DNA from: Methylococcales bacterium
GTDB taxonomy: Bacteria; Pseudomonadota; Gammaproteobacteria; Methylococcales; Methylomonadaceae
Direction: 5' to 3'
NCBI GenBank assembly: GCA_030693155.1
Contig: JAUYBJ010000204.1
Coordinates: 1-64,000, forward strand
DNA: 64,000 bases
The notes below the pieces were generated by a model. The model worked only from the letters and a program-made list of their open reading frames with translations, searched no databases and was not told where the DNA came from. Below are positions 7,214-27,103 of this stretch, piece by piece. Made by a program: the position numbers and the translations under genes. The first letter of the stretch is position 1; every line of letters begins with the position of its first letter.

Positions 7214-7231
7214 TTGTGATTCCTTGTTGGA

Positions 7232-7262
7232 GACCTGCGAGGTTTTAAAAACCTCGCAGGTC
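7232..7262. repeat. Palindrome family 1
   Basis: GACCTGCGAGGTTTTAAAAACCTCGCAGGTC. Confidence 0.9.
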
Positions 7263-7270
7263 TTGGTGGT

Positions 7271-7867
7271 TTACAAGCCAATTTGCAATAAACCAGCCGC
7301 ACTGTTCACAGGTCGAGCCTGCCATTCATCAGGCGTGTAAGTCTGCACACTGACGGCATGAAGTTTACCGCTGCCTAAGACATCGGCTAAGGTCGCCATC
7401 ACCATTTGCTGTTTTTTAACAGCGGTTAAATCAGCAAATTTTTCGCTAATCACCGTCACGGTAAAATCACAGCCTGCACCTTCAATAAATACTTGGCTAT
7501 CGACTATGCTTTGTTTCACTAATTGCTCAATATCGTTATTACTCAAACCGTCGGTTTTTTTAGTAGATTCCAGTAAGGTCAATAACGATCCATTATTAGA
7601 CATCGCTTCCACAATGTCACAACCGCCGACTAATTCACCATTGACGAATAATTGCGGAAAGGTCGGCCAATGGGAAATTTTGGGTAATTTTTCACGGATA
7701 AACGGTGCAGCTAATACATTGACGTAGGCGAAGGGAATGTTAGTGGCATTCAATAGTCCGACGGTTTTAGCAGAAAATCCGCATTCAGGATTGGTCGGCA
7801 CGCCTTTCATGTACAGAATAATGGCGTTATCAGCGAGTTGTTTTTTAATTTTTTCTTCGGTTGTCAT
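7271..7867 (-). CDS. Monothiol glutaredoxin (CGFS) fused to a C-terminal BolA/IbaG-like domain
   Basis: N-terminus: ILYMKGVPTNPECGFSAKTVGLLN...WPTFPQLFVNGELVGGCDIV; C-terminus: IEQLVKQSIVDSQVFIEGAGCDFTVTVISEKF...KLHAVSVQTYTPDEW. Confidence 0.85.
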   Translation of the reverse strand: MTTEEKIKKQLADNAIILYMKGVPTNPECGFSAKTVGLLNATNIPFAYVNVLAAPFIREKLPKISHWPTFPQLFVNGELVGGCDIVEAMSNNGSLLTLLESTKKTDGLSNNDIEQLVKQSIVDSQVFIEGAGCDFTVTVISEKFADLTAVKKQQMVMATLADVLGSGKLHAVSVQTYTPDEWQARPVNSAAGLLQIGL

Positions 7868-7901
7868 TGGGTATCTCTTTGGTTTTAAAATTTATAAAAA
7901 T

Positions 7902-8052
7902 AGTCCACGAAAAACACGAAAGGCACGAAAAAATTCAGTACTTTTATAAAGTAAGTGGATGGAGTTAACACCTAGGTTTGTACTCCTGTGTATTAACATC
8001 GAAAACTACTAACAATTCAACTTTTCGTGTTTTTCGTGCCTTTCGTGGACAA
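7902..8052. repeat. MITE-like element E1 with CACGAAA-rich terminal inverted repeats
   Basis: Left AGTCCACGAAAAACACGAAAGGCACGAAA; right TTTTCGTGTTTTTCGTGCCTTTCGTGGACAA. Confidence 0.75.
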
Positions 8053-9324
8053 TTATTCACCTGCTTGTTGCCTACGCGCTTCCGCGTCTTTATAAAGCAA
8101 ATCCACATCACCGCCGCGTACGGTTTCTGCGGTCACCGTACACTGCTCAATGTCCTCACGCGACGGTATGTCAAACATGGTTTTGCGTAATAAATGTTCC
8201 AGTATGCTGCGTAAACCGCGCGCGCCTGTTTCGCGCTCGATGGCTTTTTGGGCAATTTCTATCAGTGCATCATGGTCAAAATTCAGCATCACGCCGTCAT
8301 AGGCAAACAGTTGTTGATATTGTTTCACCAGCGCGTTTTTCGGCTCGGTTAATATCTGAATTAGCGATTCAACGTCCAATGGTTCTAAAGGCGCGAGAAT
8401 AGGAAAGCGTCCGATAAATTCAGGAATCAAGCCGAATTTGCGTAAATCGCTGGGTTGCGTGGCGTTTAACATGGCTTCTAAAGACGGTTTGTCAGGGGTG
8501 TTGCGCTCTGCATGAAAACCAATTGAGGTATTGGTTGGTACTAAACGTTTTTCAACATATTTTTCTAAACCAGGGAAAGAGCCGCCTGCGATAAATAAAA
8601 TATTGCGCGTATCCATGATGGTTTCGCCGTCCTTATTGCGTGGCCCTTTGGCGGATACTTTGACTTGTGAACCTTCTACCAACCGTAACAATGCTTGTTG
8701 TACGCCTTCGCCTGAAACATCGCGCGTGCCTGTTTGTTGTTCGGGACTACGCGCGATTTTATCCACTTCGTCTAAATAAACGATGCCCCATTCCGCTTTG
8801 GAAATATTGCCTTCTGCGACATCCAGCAAGCGCACTAAAATATTTTCCACGTCATCGCCGACATAACCCGCCTGCGTTAAGGTCGTGGCATCGGCAACCA
8901 CAAACGGAACACCGACCACTTTGGCAAGCGTACTGGCTAACAAGGTTTTGCCCGTTCCCGATGGGCCGATTAATAAAATATTGGATTTACCGATTTCAAT
9001 ATCATGATCGAATTCGCCTAAGCCCGCGTCGCCGCTTTCATGTTTCAGGCGTTTGTAGTGATTATATACCGCCACCGACAGAATTTCTTTCGCCAGATGC
9101 TGACCGATGATGTATTGATCCAAATGCGCCTTGATTTTTGCAGGTTTGGGCAACGCGCCCTGCATATCGACCAGTTCTTTTTTCTTGCTCCAACTGGTCA
9201 CTACCTGACTGGCAAGCAGTACGCAGGCTTCACAAATATAACCTTCCGCACCCGCAATTAAAGGCACACTAGCCGATTGGGGGATGCCGCAAAAAGAGCA
9301 GTGTTTGCTGTCGTTAGTCGTCAT
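8053..9324 (-). CDS. clpX: ClpX-family ATPase, nif-linked paralog
   Basis: N-terminal zinc-binding CSFCGIPQ...[25 protein letters not shown]; located next to nifM. Confidence 0.93.
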
Positions 9325-9351: not shown

Positions 9352-10179
9352 TTATTCTTTAGGCAAACCCGCTAACCACTCGCGGATACAGTTTTGTCTG
9401 GTGCGTTCTTCCATTAACGCACGGATTTTTGGGGTGGCTTTGGCGAGTGACAGAGTTTCGGCTTTGTGTATCTGTTTGCAGAGCAAAATATGCAAGCCAA
9501 TTTCTGATTCAACGACCGCGCTGATGTCGCCCGTTTTCAGGGTGAACAACACGGCATCCAGTTCAGGATACAACGTGCCACGCGGTACGATACCCAATTC
9601 ACCGCCTTGTAATGCGGTTGGGCATTCGGAATGTCGTAATGCCAAATCGGAAAATTTATAGGGTTTTTTCAGCAGTTTAGCGTGTAGTTCATTGGCTCTT
9701 TGCAAGGCCGCCTCACGGGTATTTTCCGCATAGTCGGCGTTGATGCTGATAAAAATATGACTCACGCTGCGCCGTTCGGGAACAGCAAATTTTTCGTGGC
9801 GTAAGTGGTAATACAGCCCGATGTCCACGTCATTAATACTCGGCGCACGACTGCCAACCCGATCCAGTACCGCATTGACTTTGCACTGCCGCGCCAACGC
9901 ACTGCGTAAGCTGGTTTCGTCCAGCGCATTTTTCGCCAACTCGGCTAAAAAATGGCTGTCATCATCGTAACGCGCTTGAATTTCTGCGTAAGCGTGTGCG
10001 ATTTCTTCGTCGCTGATAATCACGCCTGTGGCTTCAAGCGCATTTAACACGCGGTTTTCAATCACTAATTCATTACGCGCTTGTTTTTGCACTTGTTGTA
10101 ATTCAGCGTCGCCCAATTCGGTGGGTGCTTTTTTAAACAGCCCTAAGGCGGCTCTGAGCAAAATATAGGGTTCACTCAT
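9352..10179 (-). CDS. nifM: Nitrogen fixation protein NifM (PPIase-type)
   Basis: Parvulin-like domain RRSVSHIFISINADYAEN...SECPTALQGGELGIVPRGTLYPELDAVLFTLKTGDIS; next to nifZ/nifW. Confidence 0.9.
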   Translation of the reverse strand: MSEPYILLRAALGLFKKAPTELGDAELQQVQKQARNELVIENRVLNALEATGVIISDEEIAHAYAEIQARYDDDSHFLAELAKNALDETSLRSALARQCKVNAVLDRVGSRAPSINDVDIGLYYHLRHEKFAVPERRSVSHIFISINADYAENTREAALQRANELHAKLLKKPYKFSDLALRHSECPTALQGGELGIVPRGTLYPELDAVLFTLKTGDISAVVESEIGLHILLCKQIHKAETLSLAKATPKIRALMEERTRQNCIREWLAGLPKE

Positions 10180-10655
10180 GACTCTGGCTCGGTAAAAGTG
10201 TCTGGATTAGCTGGATTTAATGCAGGTTCTGGCACTTGAAATACGCGATCTCTAAATAAAACGTGATACAACACAGGTTCGGTGTCGCGGATAACTTTGA
10301 CTATTTCGCCTTGGGTGTCTTGCGGCACTAAAATGTTACCTTGTACGCCAAGATTAATTGCACAGCGCACTTGATCGCGAAATTCAAAGCGACTCGGTTG
10401 CCAAGGTTCATCCAGCCCCAATAATTCTTCTAAACGACAACCGACCATGCGCCCGTGTTGCAGAAAATGCACGGTAAAAATAACCTGATCTTGTAAAAAT
10501 GTCCCGACTTCGACGACGTTGCCGACACTGCCACGGCGTATTAATAACTCACCCACATCCATCCCTGGATAAGTACCGTCGTTGCGAATGTTGCGGGTGA
10601 CGCGCACGTCTTCGCCAAATTCAAAACGACCTTCGTCAAAGCGTTCGGGTTTCAT
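10176..10655 (-). CDS. nifZ: Nitrogen fixation protein NifZ
   Basis: VTRNIRNDGTYPGMDVGELLIRRGSVGNVVEVGTFLQDQVIFTVHFL. Confidence 0.93.
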   Translation of the reverse strand: MKPERFDEGRFEFGEDVRVTRNIRNDGTYPGMDVGELLIRRGSVGNVVEVGTFLQDQVIFTVHFLQHGRMVGCRLEELLGLDEPWQPSRFEFRDQVRCAINLGVQGNILVPQDTQGEIVKVIRDTEPVLYHVLFRDRVFQVPEPALNPANPDTFTEPES

Positions 10656-10972
10656 AACTTGATATCAGTTAAAGGCACAAAAGCGGTTTCAGGTTCGCCT
10701 ATGCCCATGTTAAACACTTTAAATACTTTTTCGGTTTGCGCATCGGATTCGACAAAATCCTGATACGCCCGTTCCAGCAGTTTGGTGTACACCGCGCGTT
10801 TTGCCTGTTCGTCTTCTGGCATGGTGTCAGAGGCTTGCAGCAAATAATCATGAAAGCGTTGCAGGATGTGCAAACGATTAACATGGACTACGCTGGGTTC
10901 ATAAGGAACAGCGAAGTATTGCAAAAAGTCTTCGGCGGATTCCATATCATCTAAATCGTCTTCAAAACTCAT
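10652..10972 (-). CDS. nifW: Nitrogenase-stabilizing/protective protein NifW
   Basis: DLDDMESAEDFLQYFAVPYEPSVVHVNRLHILQRFHDYL; overlaps nifZ. Confidence 0.92.
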   Translation of the reverse strand: MSFEDDLDDMESAEDFLQYFAVPYEPSVVHVNRLHILQRFHDYLLQASDTMPEDEQAKRAVYTKLLERAYQDFVESDAQTEKVFKVFNMGIGEPETAFVPLTDIKL

Positions 10973-10988
10973 GGGTTTTCTCCAGTAT

Positions 10989-11099
10989 TTACAAAGGGCC
11001 GATGGCAGAAGAATCCTGCACCGTTAAATAAACAACCAGCACAACGAATAGTAACGCGGCCGCTATTGCCAGAATAGAATCAGTTTTTTCTTTTAACAT
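10989..11099 (-). CDS. Small single-TM protein (36 aa), nif operon
   Basis: ATG..TAA reading MLKEKTDSILAIAAALLFVVLVVYLTVQDSSAIGPL; below the length cutoff of the supplied ORF track. Confidence 0.5.
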   Translation of the reverse strand: MLKEKTDSILAIAAALLFVVLVVYLTVQDSSAIGPL

Positions 11100-11204
11100 G
11101 ATATTGCTCTCGGTTTTTTAAAATATTTTTTGTCTAGTTGTCTAGTTGTCTAGTTCCCATGCTCTGCGTGGGAATTCATTCGCGCAGTGCGGATAAATCC
11201 GCAC

Positions 11205-11693
11205 CTACAAATTTTTCAGTAAATCCATTAACGCCTGCGCTCCAATACGATTCTTACTATCCAGACTGATTAATTTTTCAAAAATCTGCTCACTCAGTTC
11301 TAATCTGTGCAAACGCATATTCAAAAAACCAACCGCTTTAAGGGTAAATAAATACAACCGCACTTCGGTTAAATTGGGCGTGCTGTCTAAATGCTGTTGC
11401 TGTAAATCCTGCCAGTGTTCGGGAAAATCAATGCTGGCTCTTATGACCGCCAACGCTTTATAGGTTGCTGATAACGCATCTTCCAAGCGGTGCTGGTAAT
11501 AATAAAAACGGTTTAATGCGACTAACACATTCAGCGATTCTGGCGCGAGAAAATAGGCGCGTAATAGCGGAAATTCGGCATTACCGTTGCTGTAATCTTC
11601 AGCGGCTTGGGCAATTAATTCTTTTACGCCCGCCACATCGGCTTGTTCAAAATACAAACCTTCCGCTTCAAAATCTAATAAATCCATACTCAT
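11205..11693 (-). CDS. TPR-like nif cluster protein
   Basis: Helical TPR-like pattern (ALNRFYYYQHRLEDALSATYKAL; AVGFLNMRLHRLELSEQIFEKLISLD); co-directional with cysE and nifW. Confidence 0.65.
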   Translation of the reverse strand: MSMDLLDFEAEGLYFEQADVAGVKELIAQAAEDYSNGNAEFPLLRAYFLAPESLNVLVALNRFYYYQHRLEDALSATYKALAVIRASIDFPEHWQDLQQQHLDSTPNLTEVRLYLFTLKAVGFLNMRLHRLELSEQIFEKLISLDSKNRIGAQALMDLLKNL

Positions 11694-12464
11694 TTATATC
11701 GCCGCCGTGTTGGTTGCTTTACTGCCGCACAAGGTTTCTGCATCGCAAGCGCCACAGGATTCTTCATGCTTGTTTGCCGCCTGATTAGCTTCTAATTCAT
11801 CAATGCGTTCTAACAAACACGCAATGGCTTTGCCGACAGGATCGGGAATTTCATGATGATTTAAGTTAATACCTGAGGGGTGCTGTATCTGTGTGCCTTT
11901 GCTTTGAATAATACGACCGGGAATACCGACTACGGTGCAGCACGGCGGTACGTCTTTCACCACCACTGAATTTGCACCGACGCGGACGTTATTCCCCAAA
12001 GTAATCGGCCCTAAAATTTTTGCCCCCGCACCGACTAAGACGTTATCGCCCAGTGTCGGATGACGTTTAACTTTATGCCACGTTGTGCCGCCCAAGGTGA
12101 CACCGTGATACAGCGTGACATCGTTGCCTATTTCGGCGGTTTCACCAATCACCACGCCTAGCGCGTGGTCGATAAATAATCGCCGTCCGATAATGGCGGC
12201 GGGGTGTATATCAACAGAGGTCATCCATTTAGTGAATGCCGACAGTATGCGGGCAGTCAGTTTCCAATCGGCTTTCCATAAGCGATGACTCAGCCGATGC
12301 AGCAACAAGGCATGAACCCCCGAATAGGTCAGTAAAATTTCCAATACGCTACGCGCGGCAGGGTCACGCGCAAACACACAATGCACATCTTCATGCCATT
12401 GCGCGAACAGCGATTGTGATGCAGGTATCTGACGTAAGGCATCGTTGGGCATGACCATAACCAT
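11694..12464 (-). CDS. cysE: Serine O-acetyltransferase
   Basis: Hexapeptide repeats, [43 protein letters not shown]. Start set to 12464; longer ORF start (12578) lies in repeat DNA. Confidence 0.9.
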
Positions 12465-12485
12465 TGTGATAACTCCAAATAGGTT

Positions 12486-12611
12486 TTTGTCCACGAAAAG
12501 CATATATTGTTTTTGTGCGTGAAAGTAGGTGTGTGGGAGGGGCTTTAGCCCCGATGTCGAGGCTAAAGCCTCTCCCACAAGGTTTTTACTTTCGAGTCTT
12601 TCGTGGGCAAA
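12486..12611. repeat. MITE-like element E2 (degenerate TIRs) containing palindrome family 3
   Basis: TTTGTCCACGAAAAGCA ... TCGAGTCTTTCGTGGGCAA. Confidence 0.65.
12533..12578. repeat. Palindrome family 3 (GTGGGAGGGGCTTTAGCC...GGCTAAAGCCTCTCCCAC)
   Basis: Near copy at 48815..48860 and a truncated relative at 63964..64000. Confidence 0.85.
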
Positions 12612-12746
12612 CTAATTCAAACTCCAGCCATCGTTAACACCAGGACGAGATGGAATACAAAAAAATGACGCGGGATTTTCATCATTGGGTTCAGCAATGA
12701 CTGAATCTTCTTCGCGTTCTTTACTTTCATCGTTTACTTCGTTCAT
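12612..12746 (-). CDS. Small acidic ORF (44 aa), start overlaps nifV stop (ATGA)
   Basis: [47 protein letters not shown] at 12744-12746 overlaps nifV TGA. Confidence 0.45.
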
Positions 12747-13879
12747 GACAACACCTCAAGATTTTGGTGAAAACGGTTTAAGTCTATGGCTAAGGGTGTG
12801 CGTTTAGTCGCGCTCACAAAGCCTCTGACCTGAGTTAATAACGCTTGTGCTTGACTGCGATTAACGGGAATACCTAATTGACGGTAGGCATGAATCACCC
12901 CTTGCGTACCCGAATGTTTGCCCAGCACTAATTGATGACTACGCCCAACTATCGCAGGATCTACACCTTGATAATTGTTGGGGTCTTTTAATAAACCATC
13001 GACATGAATACCCGCTTCATGACTGAACACGGATTTGCCGATTAAACTTTTACGACTGCCAATCGCATCACCCGACGCGCGGGCGACTTGTTCTGATAGG
13101 GCAGGGAACTGGTGTAAATTCACCCCAGTTTGCAGATTGTAAAGTTGCGTTAAACCGACCACGACTTCTTCTAATGCTGCGTTGCCCGCCCGTTCACCCA
13201 AGCCATTAACGGTGGTATTCACATGAGTTGCCCCAGCGACAGCGGCTGCAAGGGTGTTGGCAGTTGCCAGCCCTAAATCATCGTGGGCGTGCATTTCAAT
13301 ATCTAAATCGGTGGCGGAGCGAAGTGTTTGTATCGCGGCGAATACGCCGAACGGTTCACTGATACCGACGGTATCCGCGTAACGAATGCGACTTGCGCCT
13401 GCCGCTTGCGCGGTTTCGGCAATCGCTAAAATAAAATCCAAGTCTGCGCGTGACGCATCTTCCATACCCACACACACGGTTAAACCCAAGGCGCGGGCTT
13501 CCTGAACACAGGTGGTAATGGTGTTTAACACCCATTGCCTATCGCGTTTCAGTTTATGTTGGATGTGTTGATCGGACGCAGAAATCGACAAATCAATCAT
13601 ATCGACATTCAGCCCGATACACGCCGCCAAATCATCACGGCGCATTCTTGACCACACCAGCAACTTACTGGGCAGTTTTAACGCGGCAATGGCTTGAATT
13701 TCTTCACGCTCCACCGCGCCCATTGCAGGAATACCACACTCTAATTCAGGCACACCCAACGCTGCCAATTGCGTGGCAATGTCCAGCTTTTCTTCCAGAG
13801 TAAATGCAACACCCGCCGATTGTTCACCGTCGCGTAGGGTGGTGTCGTCAATAATAATGTGGCGGTTTTGGGTTTTCAT
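12743..13879 (-). CDS. nifV: Homocitrate synthase
   Basis: [17 protein letters not shown]...[44 protein letters not shown]. Confidence 0.95.
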
Positions 13880-13895
13880 ACATCACCGTGCGGTA

Positions 13896-13930
13896 TAAAC
13901 CTGCGAGGTTTTTAAAACCTCGCAGGTTTA
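13896..13930. repeat. Palindrome family 1 variant
   Basis: TAAACCTGCGAGGTTTTTAAAACCTCGCAGGTTTA. Confidence 0.9.
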
Positions 13931-13933
13931 GGA

Positions 13934-15142
13934 TTAAGAATAAGTCGGTGAAAACGCTTGTTCAGGATTCGCCACAGGGGCATCACCTGACCAATACGGC
14001 GATAATTTCCGCAAGGTAGCGGCAATACCGGGCATTACTTTCAACACTTCATCCACGTCTGCCATGCTGTTATAGCGCGAAAACGAAAAGCGTATCGTGC
14101 CGTGCGCGGCGGTGTAGGGAATATCCATCGCCTGCATAACATGAGACGGTTCTAATGAGCCTGAAGTACACGCCGAGCCGCTGGAAGCCGCAATGCCTGC
14201 TTTATTGAGCAACATCAAAATAGATTCGCCTTCAATGTATTCAAAGGCAATATCAGTGGTATTCGGTAAACGGTTGTTTAAATCGCCTGTCACAAAACTG
14301 TGTGGAACGGCTTCAATAATGCCGCGTTCCAATTTATCGCGCAGGGCTTTGACTTGGGTGTTTTCGTATTCAATGTGTTGCAACGCCAGTTCACAGGCTT
14401 TGCCCAAACCGACGATGGAAGCGGTGTTTTCAGTACCTGCACGACGACCGCGTTCTTGATGACCGCCGCGTAATAACGGGCGATAACGCACACCACGGCG
14501 CAGATATAACACGCCGATGCCTTTCGGGGCGTGCAGCTTATGCCCTGAAATCGACAACATATCAATTTTGGTATCTGCCAACATCATGGGAATTTTACCG
14601 ACTGCTTGTACCGCATCAGTGTGAAACATCACACCAGCGGCATTCGCCATGTCTGCCATTTCCACCACAGGGAAAATCGTGCCTGTTTCATTATTCGCCC
14701 ACATCACGGTCACTAAAGCGACATTTTCCGAGAGCATTTTTTGGTAGCTGTCTAAATTCAAGCGACCACATTTGTCCACGGGTAAACGGTGGATGGTGTA
14801 GCCTTCTTTTTCCAGTTGCACACACACGCCAAGAATTGCAGGATGCTCAACGGTGGTAGTGATAATTTCTTTACGATTCGGTTGGCATTTAATGGCGGAT
14901 AAAATCGCGGTAGTATTCGATTCTGTGCCACATGAGGTGAAAATAATTTCCGAATCATGCTCACAACCGATTAGGGCTTGCACTTGCCCACGCGCTTGCT
15001 TAATGCCCCGTGCTACGCCATCGGCGAATTTATGAATCGAAGACGGATTGCCATATTGTTCCAAGAAATAAGGAATCATGGCATCAACCACCGCGTGGTC
15101 TACTTTGGTGGTGGCGTTGTTATCTAAGTAAATGTCAGTCAT
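13934..15142 (-). CDS. nifS: Cysteine desulfurase NifS
   Basis: MTDIYLDNNATTKVD...HTDAVQAVGKIPMMLADTKIDMLSISGHKLHAPKGIGVLYLRRG...SGSACTSGSLEPSHV. Confidence 0.95.
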   Translation of the reverse strand: MTDIYLDNNATTKVDHAVVDAMIPYFLEQYGNPSSIHKFADGVARGIKQARGQVQALIGCEHDSEIIFTSCGTESNTTAILSAIKCQPNRKEIITTTVEHPAILGVCVQLEKEGYTIHRLPVDKCGRLNLDSYQKMLSENVALVTVMWANNETGTIFPVVEMADMANAAGVMFHTDAVQAVGKIPMMLADTKIDMLSISGHKLHAPKGIGVLYLRRGVRYRPLLRGGHQERGRRAGTENTASIVGLGKACELALQHIEYENTQVKALRDKLERGIIEAVPHSFVTGDLNNRLPNTTDIAFEYIEGESILMLLNKAGIAASSGSACTSGSLEPSHVMQAMDIPYTAAHGTIRFSFSRYNSMADVDEVLKVMPGIAATLRKLSPYWSGDAPVANPEQAFSPTYS

Positions 15143-15167
15143 GACTCACTCCTTACGGGTTTATCTA

Positions 15168-15228
15168 GTTCCCACGCGCTGCGTGGGAATTCATAGTGAC
15201 CGCGTTACACAACGCGGCGCGTGGGAAC
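15168..15228. repeat. Palindrome family 4 (GTTCCCACGCG...CGCGTGGGAAC)
   Basis: Arms read directly; related copies near 3275, 11154, 24364, 44100. Confidence 0.8.
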
Positions 15229-15234
15229 GAGAAA

Positions 15235-16143
15235 TTACGCCATTTCAATATTGACCAATTTCTTCATTTCCGAAGCAGGCACAACTTTTATAAATTCGCC
15301 CATCACTTCCATCAATCTTTGTTGAATCCCTGCAATCGTCATTGCCGCCATGCTGCAACCATTACACGCCCCAGTCATATTGACATAAGCAGTGTTACCG
15401 ATGACTTCCACCAACTCGGCATCACCACCATCAGCCATCAGGGCAGGGCGTAGCGATTCCAATACTTCTTCAATTTTTTTGATGCGTTGCAAATTGGTTA
15501 ATGGCGTTTTGACGGCGGCAACAGTTTCCACTGGTTTTTTCACAGGGGCGGCAGCGGCATCAAATTTCTCGCCTTTTTCTGCCAACACTTTTTCTAAAAT
15601 CGCTTCAATGTCTTCATGACAGGCTGCACAACCGCCGCCCGCTTTGGTGAAGTTGGTGACATCTTCCACGGTGCGCAATTTATTTGCCCACACCATTTCT
15701 TCAATCATCACTGCATCAATCGCAAAACATTTGCAGATTAACGCGCCTTCTTCGTGATCGTCGCGCCATTCTTCGCCGCGATAATTGGCAATTGCCGCTT
15801 GTAAGGCTTCGCGTCCCATGACGGAGCAGTGCATTTTTTCGGGTGGTAAACCTTCCAAATGGTCGGCAATGTCTTGGTTGGTGACTTGTAAGGCTTCATC
15901 CAAGGTCATGCCTTTGATGATTTCGGTTAAGACCGAAGAAGAGGCAATCGCAGAACCACAACCAAAAGTTTGAAAGCCTGCTTCTAAAATAATTTCGCTC
16001 TCGTCATCAACTTTTAATGTTAAACGTAGAGCATCTCCACAACTGATAGATCCGACTTCGCCTGTGGCATTGGCATCCACCACTGCTCCCGCGTTTTTCG
16101 GGTTGAAAAAATGTTCTTTAACTTTATCTGAATAATCCCACAT
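15235..16143 (-). CDS. nifU: Fe-S scaffold NifU (IscU-like, [2Fe-2S], C-terminal Nfu)
   Basis: [19 protein letters not shown]...; [14 protein letters not shown]...[34 protein letters not shown]. Confidence 0.95.
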
Positions 16144-16162
16144 GGTTTAATCCTCGTATTTC

Positions 16163-16243
16163 GTAGGTTGGGTTGCCGCCTTTTGGGTAACCCAACATTT
16201 TTTGGTATTTGTTGGGTTGCGAAAGAGTCGCAACCCAACCTAC
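16163..16243. repeat. Inverted repeat GTAGGTTGGGTTGC...GCAACCCAACCTAC
   Basis: 14-bp terminal arms with further internal complementarity; related sequence near 41385-41421. Confidence 0.8.
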
Positions 16244-16245
16244 AT

Positions 16246-16608
16246 TTAATGGGGTGTGCAAGTTTTAGCGTCGCCGCCGTTTTCACTGGTGGTAAACGAT
16301 GTGCCGCACGCACAACTTTTGATTGCGTTTGGATTGGTAAACTTAAATCCTGAGCCTTCGATGCTGTCGATAAAATCGACTGACATACCGTCCAGTGCTG
16401 GCAAACTGCTTGCCGCGATAAATACTTGTACAGTGCCGCAATCAATCACGGTGTCGTCTGCGCTTTTAACGGCTTCCAGCTTTAAACCGTATTGCAGACC
16501 TGAACAGCCACCGTCGGTGACTTCGATACGCAAACCCGCTGCGGGCATTTCTGAATTGGCAATAAAGCGACCAACTGCGCTGATTGCTTTGTCTGTTAAG
16601 GTAATCAT
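16246..16608 (-). CDS. IscA/HesB-family Fe-S carrier
   Basis: MITLTDKAISAVGRFI...GLRIEVTDGGCSGLQYGLKLE...CACGTSF. Confidence 0.92.
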   Translation of the reverse strand: MITLTDKAISAVGRFIANSEMPAAGLRIEVTDGGCSGLQYGLKLEAVKSADDTVIDCGTVQVFIAASSLPALDGMSVDFIDSIEGSGFKFTNPNAIKSCACGTSFTTSENGGDAKTCTPH

Positions 16609-16652: not shown

Positions 16653-16668
16653 AGCAACCTGTATGCCA
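16653..16668 (-). promoter_or_regulatory. Sigma54 (-24/-12) promoter for iscA-nifU operon
   Basis: Minus strand TGGCATACAGGTTGCT; GG and GC at canonical spacing. Confidence 0.75.
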
Positions 16669-16752: not shown

Positions 16753-16768
16753 TGTAGGCTTTACGACA
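16753..16768. promoter_or_regulatory. NifA-type upstream activator site
   Basis: TGT-AGGCTTTACG-ACA (TGT-N10-ACA), about 85 bp upstream of the sigma54 element. Confidence 0.7.
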
Positions 16769-18059: not shown

Positions 18060-18923
18060 TCACGCCATTTTTCGATACTCTGCACCAAAACCCACAGCAT
18101 TTAATAAATCCAGTACATCGGCATCGACAATGTCCAGACCGATTTTTTTACAGTAGCGTATTTCTTTCGGCGTGGGATTTTTGTTTAACACCCAGCCTCT
18201 AGGTTGTGTGGCATCGTAGGTAATATCACTCATTACCATGCGTTCTGAATCGCGGTTTAACGGCATACCAATCAGCAGATAACGTTTATCTTTGCGATAC
18301 GCTTTGAGAAAATCGGGGATAGCAAAACCGCCCATGAGTTCAGTGATGTAATCGACATAATCCGCATCGGAGGCGATAAAATTGGGTTCGGGTTTGGCTG
18401 TACCCATCGGTTTAAACAAAATGGGCAGTTGCGGATCAACTTGATCGTGCGTTACAGGAAAGTAGTCGCTGGCGTCAAAATGGTAGCACTGAAAGCGAAA
18501 ATTACTGGCGGTTATCCGCGCTACACCCACGATTAACGTGTGTTCTTCGTCCGCGTAGCTGTCTTGTAACTGACCGTCACGGTTGATGTCGATAACGTAA
18601 GCGGGCTTCCATTCGGCAAGCCAGTCATGCACGGCGGCGCGTGTCCATTCGGTTTCACCATACAGTTTGGTGAGAAACTGACCAAGAAAATTTCTGCCCC
18701 GCTTTAATTCAAGATTCATTGCCGCACGCGGAAATTCATACATGAGTTTGGGAGCCATCGGGTTGCCGTTATTCATGGCTAAAATCAAACTGTTGCTATC
18801 GGCGGGCATTGCTGCGCCTGTTTGTTTGTTTTTGGCATCAAACAAGACACCAGAACCTAAATACGGCACGATGGTGTTATCGTACAATCCTTCAAGGATT
18901 TCTGAAAAAACGGTGGCAGACAT
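18060..18923 (-). CDS. SIR2-like domain protein, nif cluster
   Basis: N-terminal NTIVPYLGSGVLFDA, FLTKLYGETEWTRAAVHDWLAEWKPAYVIDINRDGQLQ; resembles SIR2-like families seen with nif genes. Confidence 0.6.
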   Translation of the reverse strand: MSATVFSEILEGLYDNTIVPYLGSGVLFDAKNKQTGAAMPADSNSLILAMNNGNPMAPKLMYEFPRAAMNLELKRGRNFLGQFLTKLYGETEWTRAAVHDWLAEWKPAYVIDINRDGQLQDSYADEEHTLIVGVARITASNFRFQCYHFDASDYFPVTHDQVDPQLPILFKPMGTAKPEPNFIASDADYVDYITELMGGFAIPDFLKAYRKDKRYLLIGMPLNRDSERMVMSDITYDATQPRGWVLNKNPTPKEIRYCKKIGLDIVDADVLDLLNAVGFGAEYRKMA

Positions 18924-22729: not shown

Positions 22730-24301
22730 TTAACGAACCAAATCGTAGTTATAATCCGTTGTTCCCATACCACGAGTATCTTTATCCAACTGTGTCAGCA
22801 CTTCGTTGACCAAAGTAGTCAAGATGTACATTGCACCTTCATAACCCAAGGTAGTCATGCGGTGTAAATGGTGACGGTCGAAAATCGGAAAGCCGATACG
22901 GATTAATGGCACTTCAAATTCTTCACCTTTGTACAAGGTGTCACGTTGAATAAATTTTCCGTAAGAGTTACCAATCATGAAGTCTGGTTTGTTGGTGAAC
23001 ATTAACGAACGGAAATGCCACAAATCTTTGCTCATGTGGATTTGCGTGTTTTGACCATAAGGCGAATCTGCACACAGTTTGACCATCGCTTTTTGCCAGC
23101 GTTTGTTGGCATGGTTACATAACACATCACTCGGTTCTGCGCCCAATTCCAACAAGAATTGCGTCATACCCATACAGAAATCAGCATCACCGTACAACGC
23201 GAATTTCTTGCCGTGTAACCAAGTATGTGAGTCAGTCATCATGTCAACCAAACGACCGCGTTCTAGTTCCAACGAGGCAGCAATCGGTTTACCCGTGAGT
23301 TCAGAAATTTTCATCAAAAACGCATCTGTCCACGCCAAGCCCATGGGGATATTGATAGCAGAGACAGGTTGATTCCAGGTTGTTTGAATATACTTTTTGG
23401 TTTTATCCAGCTGCCAAGGTTGCAACAACAAGGTATCAATCGCGTTAGGCGCGTCTTTGATTTCGGCTTGGGTTGTACCACCTGCATACAGACGGAATGA
23501 ACCATCGGCTGGGGTATCCAGCACTTCAGACGGATCGCTTAATAAGCTGTAACCTACGCCCATTTCTTTCATCATGCGGTGCATAACGCGGTAGTTGCCC
23601 AAGTAAGTTTCAAAACCAGGAACGAGGTTGATTTTACCGTTTGAACCAACGACTTTATCGTCCATCGTGGTGCGGGTGAAATACTTAATCATGCCTTCGA
23701 ACATATTGTCCCAGCCTGTGGTATGGCTACCGACAAAACTAGGGGTATGGGCGAATGGCGTTGGAAAATCCTGTTCGATATGACCCGCATTTTTTGAGTT
23801 ATTGATGAACGCATTTAAGTCGTCACCGATAACTTCCGCCATACAGGTAGTTGATACCGCGATAATGTCTGGTTTGTATAAGGCTTTGCAGTTTTCCAAA
23901 CCTGCCATCATATTTTTTTGACCACCAAACACCGCCGCATCTTCAGTCATTGAATCCGATACACAGGCAACGGGCTCTTTAAAATGACGGTTAAAGTAAG
24001 TACGAAAATAGGCAACGCAACCTTGTGAACCGTGGACATAGGGCATGGTTTTTTCAAAACCCAAGGCACATAACACCGCGCCTAAGGGTTGACAGGCTTT
24101 AGCGGGATTAACGGTCAGGGCTTCACGGTTAAAATTGACTTCTTGGTATTCTTTGGTGGTTGTCCATTGAAATACTTCATCAATTTTTTCTTGCTCGTGA
24201 CGCTCTTCGTAATTGTCGCGTTTGTTTTTCAAGCTATCTTTGTATTCATCAGTACGGAATAACGGATAACTCGGTTGTATGTTATCGACGTTTTGGCTCA
24301 T
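22730..24301 (-). CDS. nifK: Nitrogenase MoFe protein beta subunit
   Basis: NPAKACQPLGAVLCALGFEKTMPYVHGSQGCVAYFRTYFNRHFKEP...STTCMAEVIGDDL. Confidence 0.98.
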   Translation of the reverse strand: MSQNVDNIQPSYPLFRTDEYKDSLKNKRDNYEERHEQEKIDEVFQWTTTKEYQEVNFNREALTVNPAKACQPLGAVLCALGFEKTMPYVHGSQGCVAYFRTYFNRHFKEPVACVSDSMTEDAAVFGGQKNMMAGLENCKALYKPDIIAVSTTCMAEVIGDDLNAFINNSKNAGHIEQDFPTPFAHTPSFVGSHTTGWDNMFEGMIKYFTRTTMDDKVVGSNGKINLVPGFETYLGNYRVMHRMMKEMGVGYSLLSDPSEVLDTPADGSFRLYAGGTTQAEIKDAPNAIDTLLLQPWQLDKTKKYIQTTWNQPVSAINIPMGLAWTDAFLMKISELTGKPIAASLELERGRLVDMMTDSHTWLHGKKFALYGDADFCMGMTQFLLELGAEPSDVLCNHANKRWQKAMVKLCADSPYGQNTQIHMSKDLWHFRSLMFTNKPDFMIGNSYGKFIQRDTLYKGEEFEVPLIRIGFPIFDRHHLHRMTTLGYEGAMYILTTLVNEVLTQLDKDTRGMGTTDYNYDLVR

Positions 24302-24363
24302 GGTAAAAGCTCCTACGCACCACTAATCTGTGGATGACGTGTAAGTTAAAATGTGGTTGGCTG

Positions 24364-24457
24364 GTTCCCACGCTCTGCGTGAGATGCCGCCTTAGACGCT
24401 CTGCTTCTCGCACCGCTAACGGTGCAGTATTTCATTCCCACGTTGGAACGTGGGAAC
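24364..24457. repeat. Palindrome family 4 composite between nifD and nifK
   Basis: GTTCCCACG...CGTGGGAAC with internal stems (e.g. CACCGCTAACGGTG). Confidence 0.75.
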
Positions 24458-24471
24458 TATAAGTGCGAAAA

Positions 24472-25953
24472 TTACGCGCTGGCAGCCACTGCCACTGGGT
24501 TATTTTCAGCCTTTTTCCAAGGCACTTGAACCTGTTTCCAGCAAGGGTTGTTAAGCGTCATATCCATATCGCGGGCAAAAATAGCAAAGCCGTCATAACC
24601 GTGATAAGGGCCTGAATAATCCCAAGAGTGCATTTGACGGAAAGGAATGCCCATTTTTTGGAAAATGTACTTTTCTTTAATGCCTGAACCGATTAAGTCA
24701 GGTTTGACACGTTTTACAAACTCTTCAAATTCATAGCCAGTGACATCGTCATAAATCAACGTGGCATTGCCCATTTCTTTGATAGTACGGTCGTAATCGT
24801 CGTTATGACCAAATTCATAACCGGTACCGACCACTTCCATACCTAAATCTTCATACGCACCGATAACATGACGGGGACGTAAGCCACCGACATACAACAT
24901 GACGCGTTTGCCTTGTAGACGTGGTTTGTATTTAGCGATTACAGCCTCGTATTCGGCTTTGTAACGCTCGATAACACGTTCCGCACCCTCTTGGATGGTT
25001 TCATCGAATAACGCGGCTATTTTGCGCAAGGATTCAGCAATTTTGGTTGGGCCAAAAAAGTTGTACTCAATCCAAGGAATTTTGTATTTTTCTTCCATGT
25101 GTCGGGCGATATAGTTCATCGAACGATAGCAATGGATAAGGTTTAATTTAACTTTCGGGGTTTTTTCCATTTCGGCAATCGTGCCATCCCCAGACCATTG
25201 GGCAACCACTCGTAAACCCATTTCTTCTAACAAAGTACGCGAAGCCCACGCATCACCGCCGATGTTATAGTCACCGATAACCGCTACGTCATACGGTGTG
25301 GTTTGGAAACTTTCATCACCGTCACGGTTTTCTAACACCCAGTCCCGAATCGCGTCATTAGCAATGTGATGACCTAACGATTGTGATACACCACGGAAAC
25401 CTTCACAACGCACAGGCACAACGGGTTTACCGATTTCTTTGTTGGCTTTTTTAGCGACCGCTTCAATATCGTCACCAATCAAACCAATCGGACATTCCGA
25501 TTGAATACTGATGCCTTTATTCAGCGGAAATAATTCTTCAATTTCGTGCATAATTTTGGCGAGTTTTTTATCGCCACCAAATACGATGTCTTTTTCCTGA
25601 AAATCAGAGGTAAAGTTCATCGTACCAAACGCATTGATACCTGTAGTACCGACGTAATAATTACGACGACCTGCACGCGAATACTGACCACAACCGACAG
25701 GGCCGTGAGAAATATGAATCATGTCTTTAATCGGGCCCCACACCACGCCCTTGGATCCTGCATAAGCACAGCCACGAATAGTCATGACACCAGGTAAGGA
25801 TTTACGGTTAGAGGTAATACATTTGTTTGATTTTTCTACCGATTGATCATTGACCGCTAAATGTTTAGCACGGTCTTTTTTTGCTGCATCTGGATAGACT
25901 TCAAGCACTTCTTGAATAAGGGCTTCAGTCTCTTCTCTTGTTAAAGCGGCCAT
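24472..25953 (-). CDS. nifD: Nitrogenase MoFe protein alpha chain
   Basis: [45 protein letters not shown]...; start at 25953 preceded by AGGAG. Confidence 0.98.
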
Positions 25954-26012
25954 AATAATGCTCCTACTATAATGTCGTGAGTAATCCCTCACAGACAGGT
26001 TTTAGGATGGAA

Positions 26013-26043
26013 TGATAGGGTACGCAAAACGCGCACCCTATCA
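26013..26043 (-). repeat. nifH-nifD intergenic stem-loop
   Basis: Minus strand TGATAGGGTGCGC-GTTTT-GCGTACCCTATCA, 13-bp stem including one G-U. Confidence 0.8.
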
Positions 26044-26047
26044 GTGG

Positions 26048-26932
<885 letters not shown>

Positions 26933-26972: not shown

Positions 26973-26988
26973 AGCAATGGCTGTGCCA
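26973..26988 (-). promoter_or_regulatory. Sigma54 (-24/-12) promoter of nifH
   Basis: Minus strand TGGCACAGCCATTGCT; matches TGGCAC-N5-TTGCW. Confidence 0.88.
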
Positions 26989-27087: not shown

Positions 27088-27103
27088 TGTAGGCTTAGTG
27101 ACA
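27088..27103. promoter_or_regulatory. NifA upstream activator site of nifH
   Basis: TGT-AGGCTTAGTG-ACA, about 100 bp upstream of the -24 element. Confidence 0.82.

Follow-up and report, generated by a model that had tools for sequence, protein, structure and literature searches.

A glutaredoxin-BolA fusion protein encoded in the nif clusters of methanotrophs: a proposed [2Fe-2S] carrier for nitrogenase assembly

The window analysed here, a 64,000-nucleotide stretch of a draft genome of 281 contigs, carries on its reverse strand a gene for a 198-residue protein in which a glutaredoxin (Grx) domain and a BolA domain share one open reading frame (7271..7867). Its upstream neighbour encodes a second, nif-type ClpX (8053..9324, reverse strand; a separate ClpX is encoded on contig C3), preceded on the same strand by a block of nifM, nifZ, nifW, a TPR gene, cysE, nifV, nifS, nifU and iscA-nif (9352..16608). 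The gene thus adjoins an iscA-nifUSV-cysE-nifWZM-clpX block, as expected from the sequence-only reading, which had placed it inside the nif cluster. Just upstream of iscA-nif is a perfect sigma-54-type sequence, TGGCA-N6-TTGC (16654..16668, reverse strand), with a NifA upstream-activator-like sequence, TGT-N10-ACA (16753..16768, no strand assigned), about 85 bp upstream of it; we infer that transcripts from this sigma-54 box read through to the fusion gene. The nifK, nifD and nifH genes lie at 22730..26929 on the same strand, with NifD scoring over the cut-off at 24517-25920 and nifK and nifH named from their ORF sequences. Upstream of nifH there is also a perfect sigma-54-type box (26974-26988) and a NifA-type activator site (27088-27103).

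Where the flanking sequence of a methanotroph locus extends far enough, the fusion gene nearly always follows nifW-nifZ-nifM-clpX. The gap between clpX and the fusion has a median length of 93 bp in 46 loci and is 185 bp in the window, where it holds a repeat element. This element is an inverted repeat (7896-8057) with 36-nt arms (CCACGAAAAACACGAAAGGCACGAAAA) and strong predicted folding (z -6.6); the genome contains about 72 partial matches to it, often paired, indicative of a MITE- or REP-like family. Right past the fusion stop codon, at 7231-7263, there is a perfect 16-nt palindrome (AGACCTGCGAGGTTTT/AAAACCTCGCAGGTCT) that could be a terminator or a repeat element. Two other genes of the region deserve mention. 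The TPR-like protein encoded between cysE and nifW (11205-11693) has no Pfam or NCBIfam match, and is conserved at this position across the majority of the nif clusters examined, those of Pseudomonas and Stutzerimonas among them. A SIR2_2-domain protein is encoded inside the nif region at 18060-18923; a zetaproteobacterium (L103) and a gammaproteobacterium (L111) encode close relatives of it (about 370 bits) in the vicinity of rhdN-grx-bolA or nif genes. Elsewhere in its genome, the window organism has a housekeeping CGFS Grx (contig C117) and a canonical BolA_H protein (contig C45). A stand-alone IbaG was not found in this genome or in three related genomes with the fusion; in none of the four was an IbaG-type domain detected other than the fused one.

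The fusion frame begins with ATG and has no internal stop codons. The protein has a Glutaredoxin Pfam match at residues 16-80 (65.3 bits, above the gathering cut-off) and a BolA match (PF01722) at residues 131-181 (43.8 bits against a cut-off of 25.7). The Grx domain (residues 1-103; 7559..7867, reverse strand) scores 127.3 bits against the TIGR00365 (Grx4 family) cut-off of 117.1, which makes it a class II monothiol CGFS glutaredoxin; its closest solved relative is E. coli Grx4 (4e-32). A linker of about residues 101-109 (7541..7567, reverse strand), apparent from the alignment and from lower pLDDT, is variable in length and mostly longer in relatives than in the window protein. It connects to a BolA domain (residues 110-184; 7316..7540, reverse strand) whose best solved relative is E. 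coli YrbA/IbaG, 1ny8 (1.3e-12 with the full-length query, 3e-13 with just the C-terminal part), and whose profile, fold and invariant C-terminal His are those of the IbaG/YrbA type of the BolA family. An AlphaFold2 model based on an alignment of 20 relatives (mean pLDDT 80, pTM 0.52) contains both folds; in Foldseek comparisons, the N-terminal half matched Grx4 of E. coli (2wci_B) at 0.6 Å over 101 columns, and the C-terminal half matched a BolA protein (3tr3_B) at 1.3 Å over 76 columns. The Pfam domains, solved relatives and modelled folds therefore confirm that this is a Grx-BolA fusion with a BolA fold at its C-terminus. The sequence-only reading had proposed exactly this, offering structure prediction as a check and naming a stop between the domains, or a missing BolA fold, as reasons to give it up; no such stop was found in any of the 20 family genomes with a full-length fusion, the window's included. 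The fusion also occurs, at 95% identity, in a second genome of the window's genus. Both halves are under purifying selection, with dN/dS values inside the genus of about 0.03-0.06 (Grx) and 0.05-0.2 (BolA).

Every known cluster ligand position is filled in both domains, and all are invariant in an alignment of 50 fusions. On the Grx side, the predicted ligand is Cys29 of the CGFS active site (residues 29-32; 7772..7783, reverse strand). On the BolA side, the predicted ligands are Cys133 of the [H/C] loop (GAGCDF; 7469..7471, reverse strand), which is also present in adjacent nif-BolA proteins, and His170 (KLHAV; 7358..7360, reverse strand), the invariant BolA His. According to the published rule, the BolA-side ligands are the invariant His together with a His or Cys of the loop (PMC7538681, PMC6558291). 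The corresponding loop of E. coli IbaG reads GDGSHF, and because Cys133 aligns with its Ser-His, we predict a ligand set of Cys29, glutathione, Cys133 and His170, the BolA_C pattern. By definition, a BolA_C protein has Cys rather than His in the [H/C] loop between strands beta1 and beta2; the subtype is reported to be seldom found in prokaryotes (PMC7538681). The loop Cys is universal among the nif-linked BolA proteins in our sample; we rejected it as a nif-specific mark, since it also occurs in 6 of 25 stand-alone IbaG/BolA proteins sampled and in the stand-alone IbaG of Azotobacter.

The earlier observation that the invariant His and the loop Cys are kept was thus correct. Its suggestion that cluster ligation may differ fares less evenly: ligation is predicted to be unlike that of E. 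coli IbaG, but to follow the same pattern as in eukaryotic BolA2/Fra2/BOLA3. The accompanying argument, that KKQ in place of an RHQ-like helix motif points to altered ligation, falls because E. coli IbaG has VKKQQ at the same place. KKQ (residues 151-153, within KKQQ at 151-154; 7409..7417, reverse strand) is therefore the normal IbaG motif rather than an anomaly, and it does not coincide with the published ligand positions (PMC7538681).

We searched 37 genomes of the window's family, including its own, and found a full-length fusion in 20. NifD or clear nif genes are present in 19 of these 20 genomes and in none of the 17 without the fusion. Within the window's genus both states occur, with four genomes having the fusion and nif genes and four having neither. 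For two fusion genomes (G011 and G029) the nifD evidence is incomplete. For a third (G024), which is rated 100% complete, nifD was not found; this genome counts against a nif-dedicated role. In a scan of 85k species, at least 52 of the best 80 loci have a fused frame; rarer fusions elsewhere are possible. The hosts include Crenothrix sp. D3 (a near relative), Methylobacter, Methylovulum, Methylomonas and Methylotuvimicrobium, among others; some of them, such as Methylotuvimicrobium buryatense 5G and Methylomonas sp. LW13, are isolates whose genomes are complete or in a single scaffold. A search of 399 genomes of the phylum at E 1e-38 gave no fusion beyond the methanotroph group. In one methanotroph bin (L087:8042-8713), the fusion is broken within its Grx domain by an in-frame TAA codon and clpX is split too, reflecting decay or assembly errors.

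In other nif clusters, mostly from Gamma- and Zetaproteobacteria, the two halves are encoded by adjacent genes with grx first, often as rhdN-grx-bolA; these unfused pairs often lie after rhdN, near nifB/nifQ. The order in Sessilibacter, nifA-nifB-fdxN-nifO-nifQ-rhdN-grx-bolA, is that of the A. vinelandii minor cluster (PMC9866876) with BolA added, and variants of the adjacent arrangement occur in Oceanobacter, Parathalassolituus, Glaciecola, Methylococcaceae and Zetaproteobacteria. In several unfused homologues, grx and bolA are in the same frame with a single stop codon between them, such that loss of this stop would suffice for fusion. In a tree of BolA proteins, fused and adjacent nif-BolAs form one clade (98/94), which also takes in two stand-alone proteins whose genomic context is unclear. 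In the Grx tree, a nif clade (99/98) that includes the Azotobacter homologues is separate from housekeeping Grx proteins; the place of the window gene in a nif cluster and its grouping with Azotobacter Grx-nif identify its Grx domain as Grx-nif. The fused sequences form one clade of the Grx tree, and the disrupted copy falls within it. Hence co-occurrence, synteny and nif clades all bear out the dedication to nitrogenase that the sequence-only reading had assumed.

No BolA gene was found within about 10 kb of Grx-nif in Azotobacter, Pseudomonas, Stutzerimonas or Billgrantia (loci L104, L106, L109, L110, L112, L114, L116, L118 and L119), and the BolA-less Grx-nif proteins of Azotobacter and Pseudomonas group with BolA-paired ones (84/92, a node that is not starred). 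The simplest reading of these trees would be one old nif pair, one fusion and one loss of BolA. Loss of the BolA half in the Azotobacter lineage is likely rather than proven, because the trees span about 100 columns.

The C-terminal tail of the fusion holds a GLLQI element (residues 192-196; 7280..7294, reverse strand) that is predicted to be disordered (pLDDT < 50). LLQI is at or close to the C-terminus, behind a variable stretch, in all 50 aligned fusions. A strict form of the tail, L[LVTF][QRH][IL], is present in 52 of 52 fusions, 20 of 30 adjacent BolAs and 0 of 25 stand-alone BolAs. LVQ[IL]-like ends prevail among the unfused nif-BolAs from Gamma- and Zetaproteobacteria, and most of the Methylococcus-type proteins have no tail. 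The case for GLLQI as a nif-only signature is weakened by a looser [LV][QR][IV] end in 13 of the 25 stand-alone proteins; since many stand-alone IbaGs share such an ending (KLQ[IV]), the tail is probably an inherited IbaG element under unusual constraint. That it serves docking is a guess. A role as a ClpX degron is unsupported, given that tail-less Methylococcaceae genomes keep the nif-type ClpX and that some tail-bearing genomes (G321, G430) have just one ClpX.

We propose, as the reading that we consider probable, that the fusion is a nif-dedicated [2Fe-2S] carrier that holds its BolA partner in cis. Grx-nif and a nif-type IbaG/BolA, an old gene pair, would have merged into a single protein when Methylomonadaceae-type methanotrophs shared an ancestor. 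Most likely, the two domains would hold one [2Fe-2S] cluster between them, with Cys29 and glutathione as ligands from the Grx domain and Cys133 and His170 from the BolA domain, and would pass it to the nitrogenase assembly machinery. Fusion would raise the local concentration of a partner otherwise bound with micromolar affinity, the Kd of known Grx-BolA pairs being about 3-30 uM (PMC7538681). As acceptor, the best candidate would be the core domain of NifU with its permanent [2Fe-2S] site; the A-type IscA-nif of the same operon is an alternative partner. As a precedent, transfer of [2Fe-2S] from A. vinelandii GrxD to the core domain of NifU runs in one direction, Grx-nif has been proposed as an alternative route to the NifU cluster beside GrxD, and nitrogenase activity is reportedly reduced in a Grx-nif mutant (PMC13382767). 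More broadly, though we regard this as doubtful, a nif-specific Grx-BolA_C pair may be an ancestral, as yet uncharacterised, nitrogenase-maturation part in Gamma- and Zetaproteobacteria that supplies or protects the [2Fe-2S] sites of NifU or IscA-nif, was lost as a pair in Azotobacter/Pseudomonas, became one protein in methanotrophs, and uses its LxQ[IL] tail to dock a Nif partner.

A simple donor role fits awkwardly with a reported effect of BolA, which is to switch Grx from cluster donor to net acceptor (Mapolelo 2013, as cited in PMC3721309). For this reason a different function stays open, albeit an unlikely one, in which BolA would stabilise the Grx cluster and the protein would thereby act as a [2Fe-2S] store or signal Fe-S/O2 status to nif regulation. 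Grx-BolA pairs act in fungal iron sensing, and Cys133 is of the BolA_C type of fungal and animal partners (PMC7538681); moreover, heterodimers are usually more stable than Grx homodimers (PMC6558291), and A-type proteins are able to load Grx-BolA, with transfer going the opposite way when BolA is absent (PMC3721309). Nonetheless, the genes that accompany the fusion or its homologues are those for assembly (nifU, nifS, iscA, nifB, nifQ and rhdN) rather than regulators alone, and transfer from class II Grx to NifU is one-way (PMC13382767).

Pairing may also occur in trans, the linker being a mere tether, the functional units being intermolecular (Grx-Grx, or Grx with the BolA domain of another chain), and fusion serving mainly to equalise expression. 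The AlphaFold2 models have no confident domain arrangement (pTM 0.52 and 0.51, with no improvement from the 50-fusion alignment), and hence do not separate cis from trans pairing. The differing linker lengths among relatives, the poor order of the linker in the models, and the fact that other diazotrophs manage with separate adjacent genes would all suit pairing in trans, which we nevertheless consider improbable: all sampled nif-bearing family members keep the fusion, save the disrupted copy, and this exceeds the need for translational coupling. It is far less likely that the BolA half is a dispensable passenger on a Grx-nif that works alone. Azotobacter fixes nitrogen with a Grx-nif that lacks a neighbouring nif-BolA, which also counts against the carrier proposed above, and the loci of Pseudomonas, Stutzerimonas and Billgrantia likewise have no BolA nearby; purifying selection on the BolA half and the invariance of Cys133 and His170 argue that the domain is not idle in the fusion. 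Lastly, an artefactual joining of two genes, conceivable in a draft genome when a single same-frame stop separates them in several homologues, is already refuted by the full-length fusions in 20 family genomes and at least 52 of the best 80 loci, complete or single-scaffold isolates included.

The route by which iron-sulfur clusters arrive at nitrogenase assembly is an open question, and one that matters for putting nitrogen fixation into plants. A 2026 study identified class II Grx as one donor for the [2Fe-2S] site of NifU, with Grx-nif as a possible second route (PMC13382767). Our analysis suggests that Grx-nif usually works together with its own BolA, which is absent beside the Azotobacter gene. 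As a ready 1:1 unit of Grx and BolA, the fusion that we describe could also serve structural studies of an otherwise weak complex.

Natural Grx-BolA fusions have been noted before (Couturier et al., 2009, cited in PMC3721309; PMC6558291), so the architecture as such is known; these mentions, in the available text, concern the same domain combination and name no nif link, phylogeny or species. We found no methanotroph or nif Grx-BolA fusion in the literature searched, most subscription papers being outside its scope, and no account of a nif-dedicated Grx-BolA_C pair or of its loss in the Azotobacter lineage in the searchable literature. Hence, Grx-nif and Grx-BolA fusions are known, and the nif-dedicated pair, the methanotroph fusion and the Azotobacter-lineage loss appear to be new. 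One close known counterpart is A. vinelandii Grx-nif (grx5-nif, Avin51060), likewise a CGFS Grx encoded in a nif cluster, in this case the minor one. It follows nifB-fdxN-nifOQ-rhdN (PMC9866876), whereas the window fusion follows clpX; Grx proteins at the rhdN place in A. beijerinckii and A. chroococcum belong to the same Grx clade as the fusion. Azotobacter Grx-nif has no BolA domain and no adjacent nif-BolA, whereas the window gene is fused. The E. coli Grx4-IbaG (YrbA) pair consists of the same two domain families, with the same KKQQ helix motif, but as separate proteins without a nif link, and its IbaG is a BolA_H protein (GDGSHF) where the window protein has a loop Cys. Conversely, the eukaryotic BolA_C partners of class II Grx, Fra2/BolA2 and BOLA3, match the fusion in using Cys and His on the BolA side, but they are separate proteins with roles in iron sensing or mitochondrial Fe-S maturation, while the window domain is IbaG-like by sequence.
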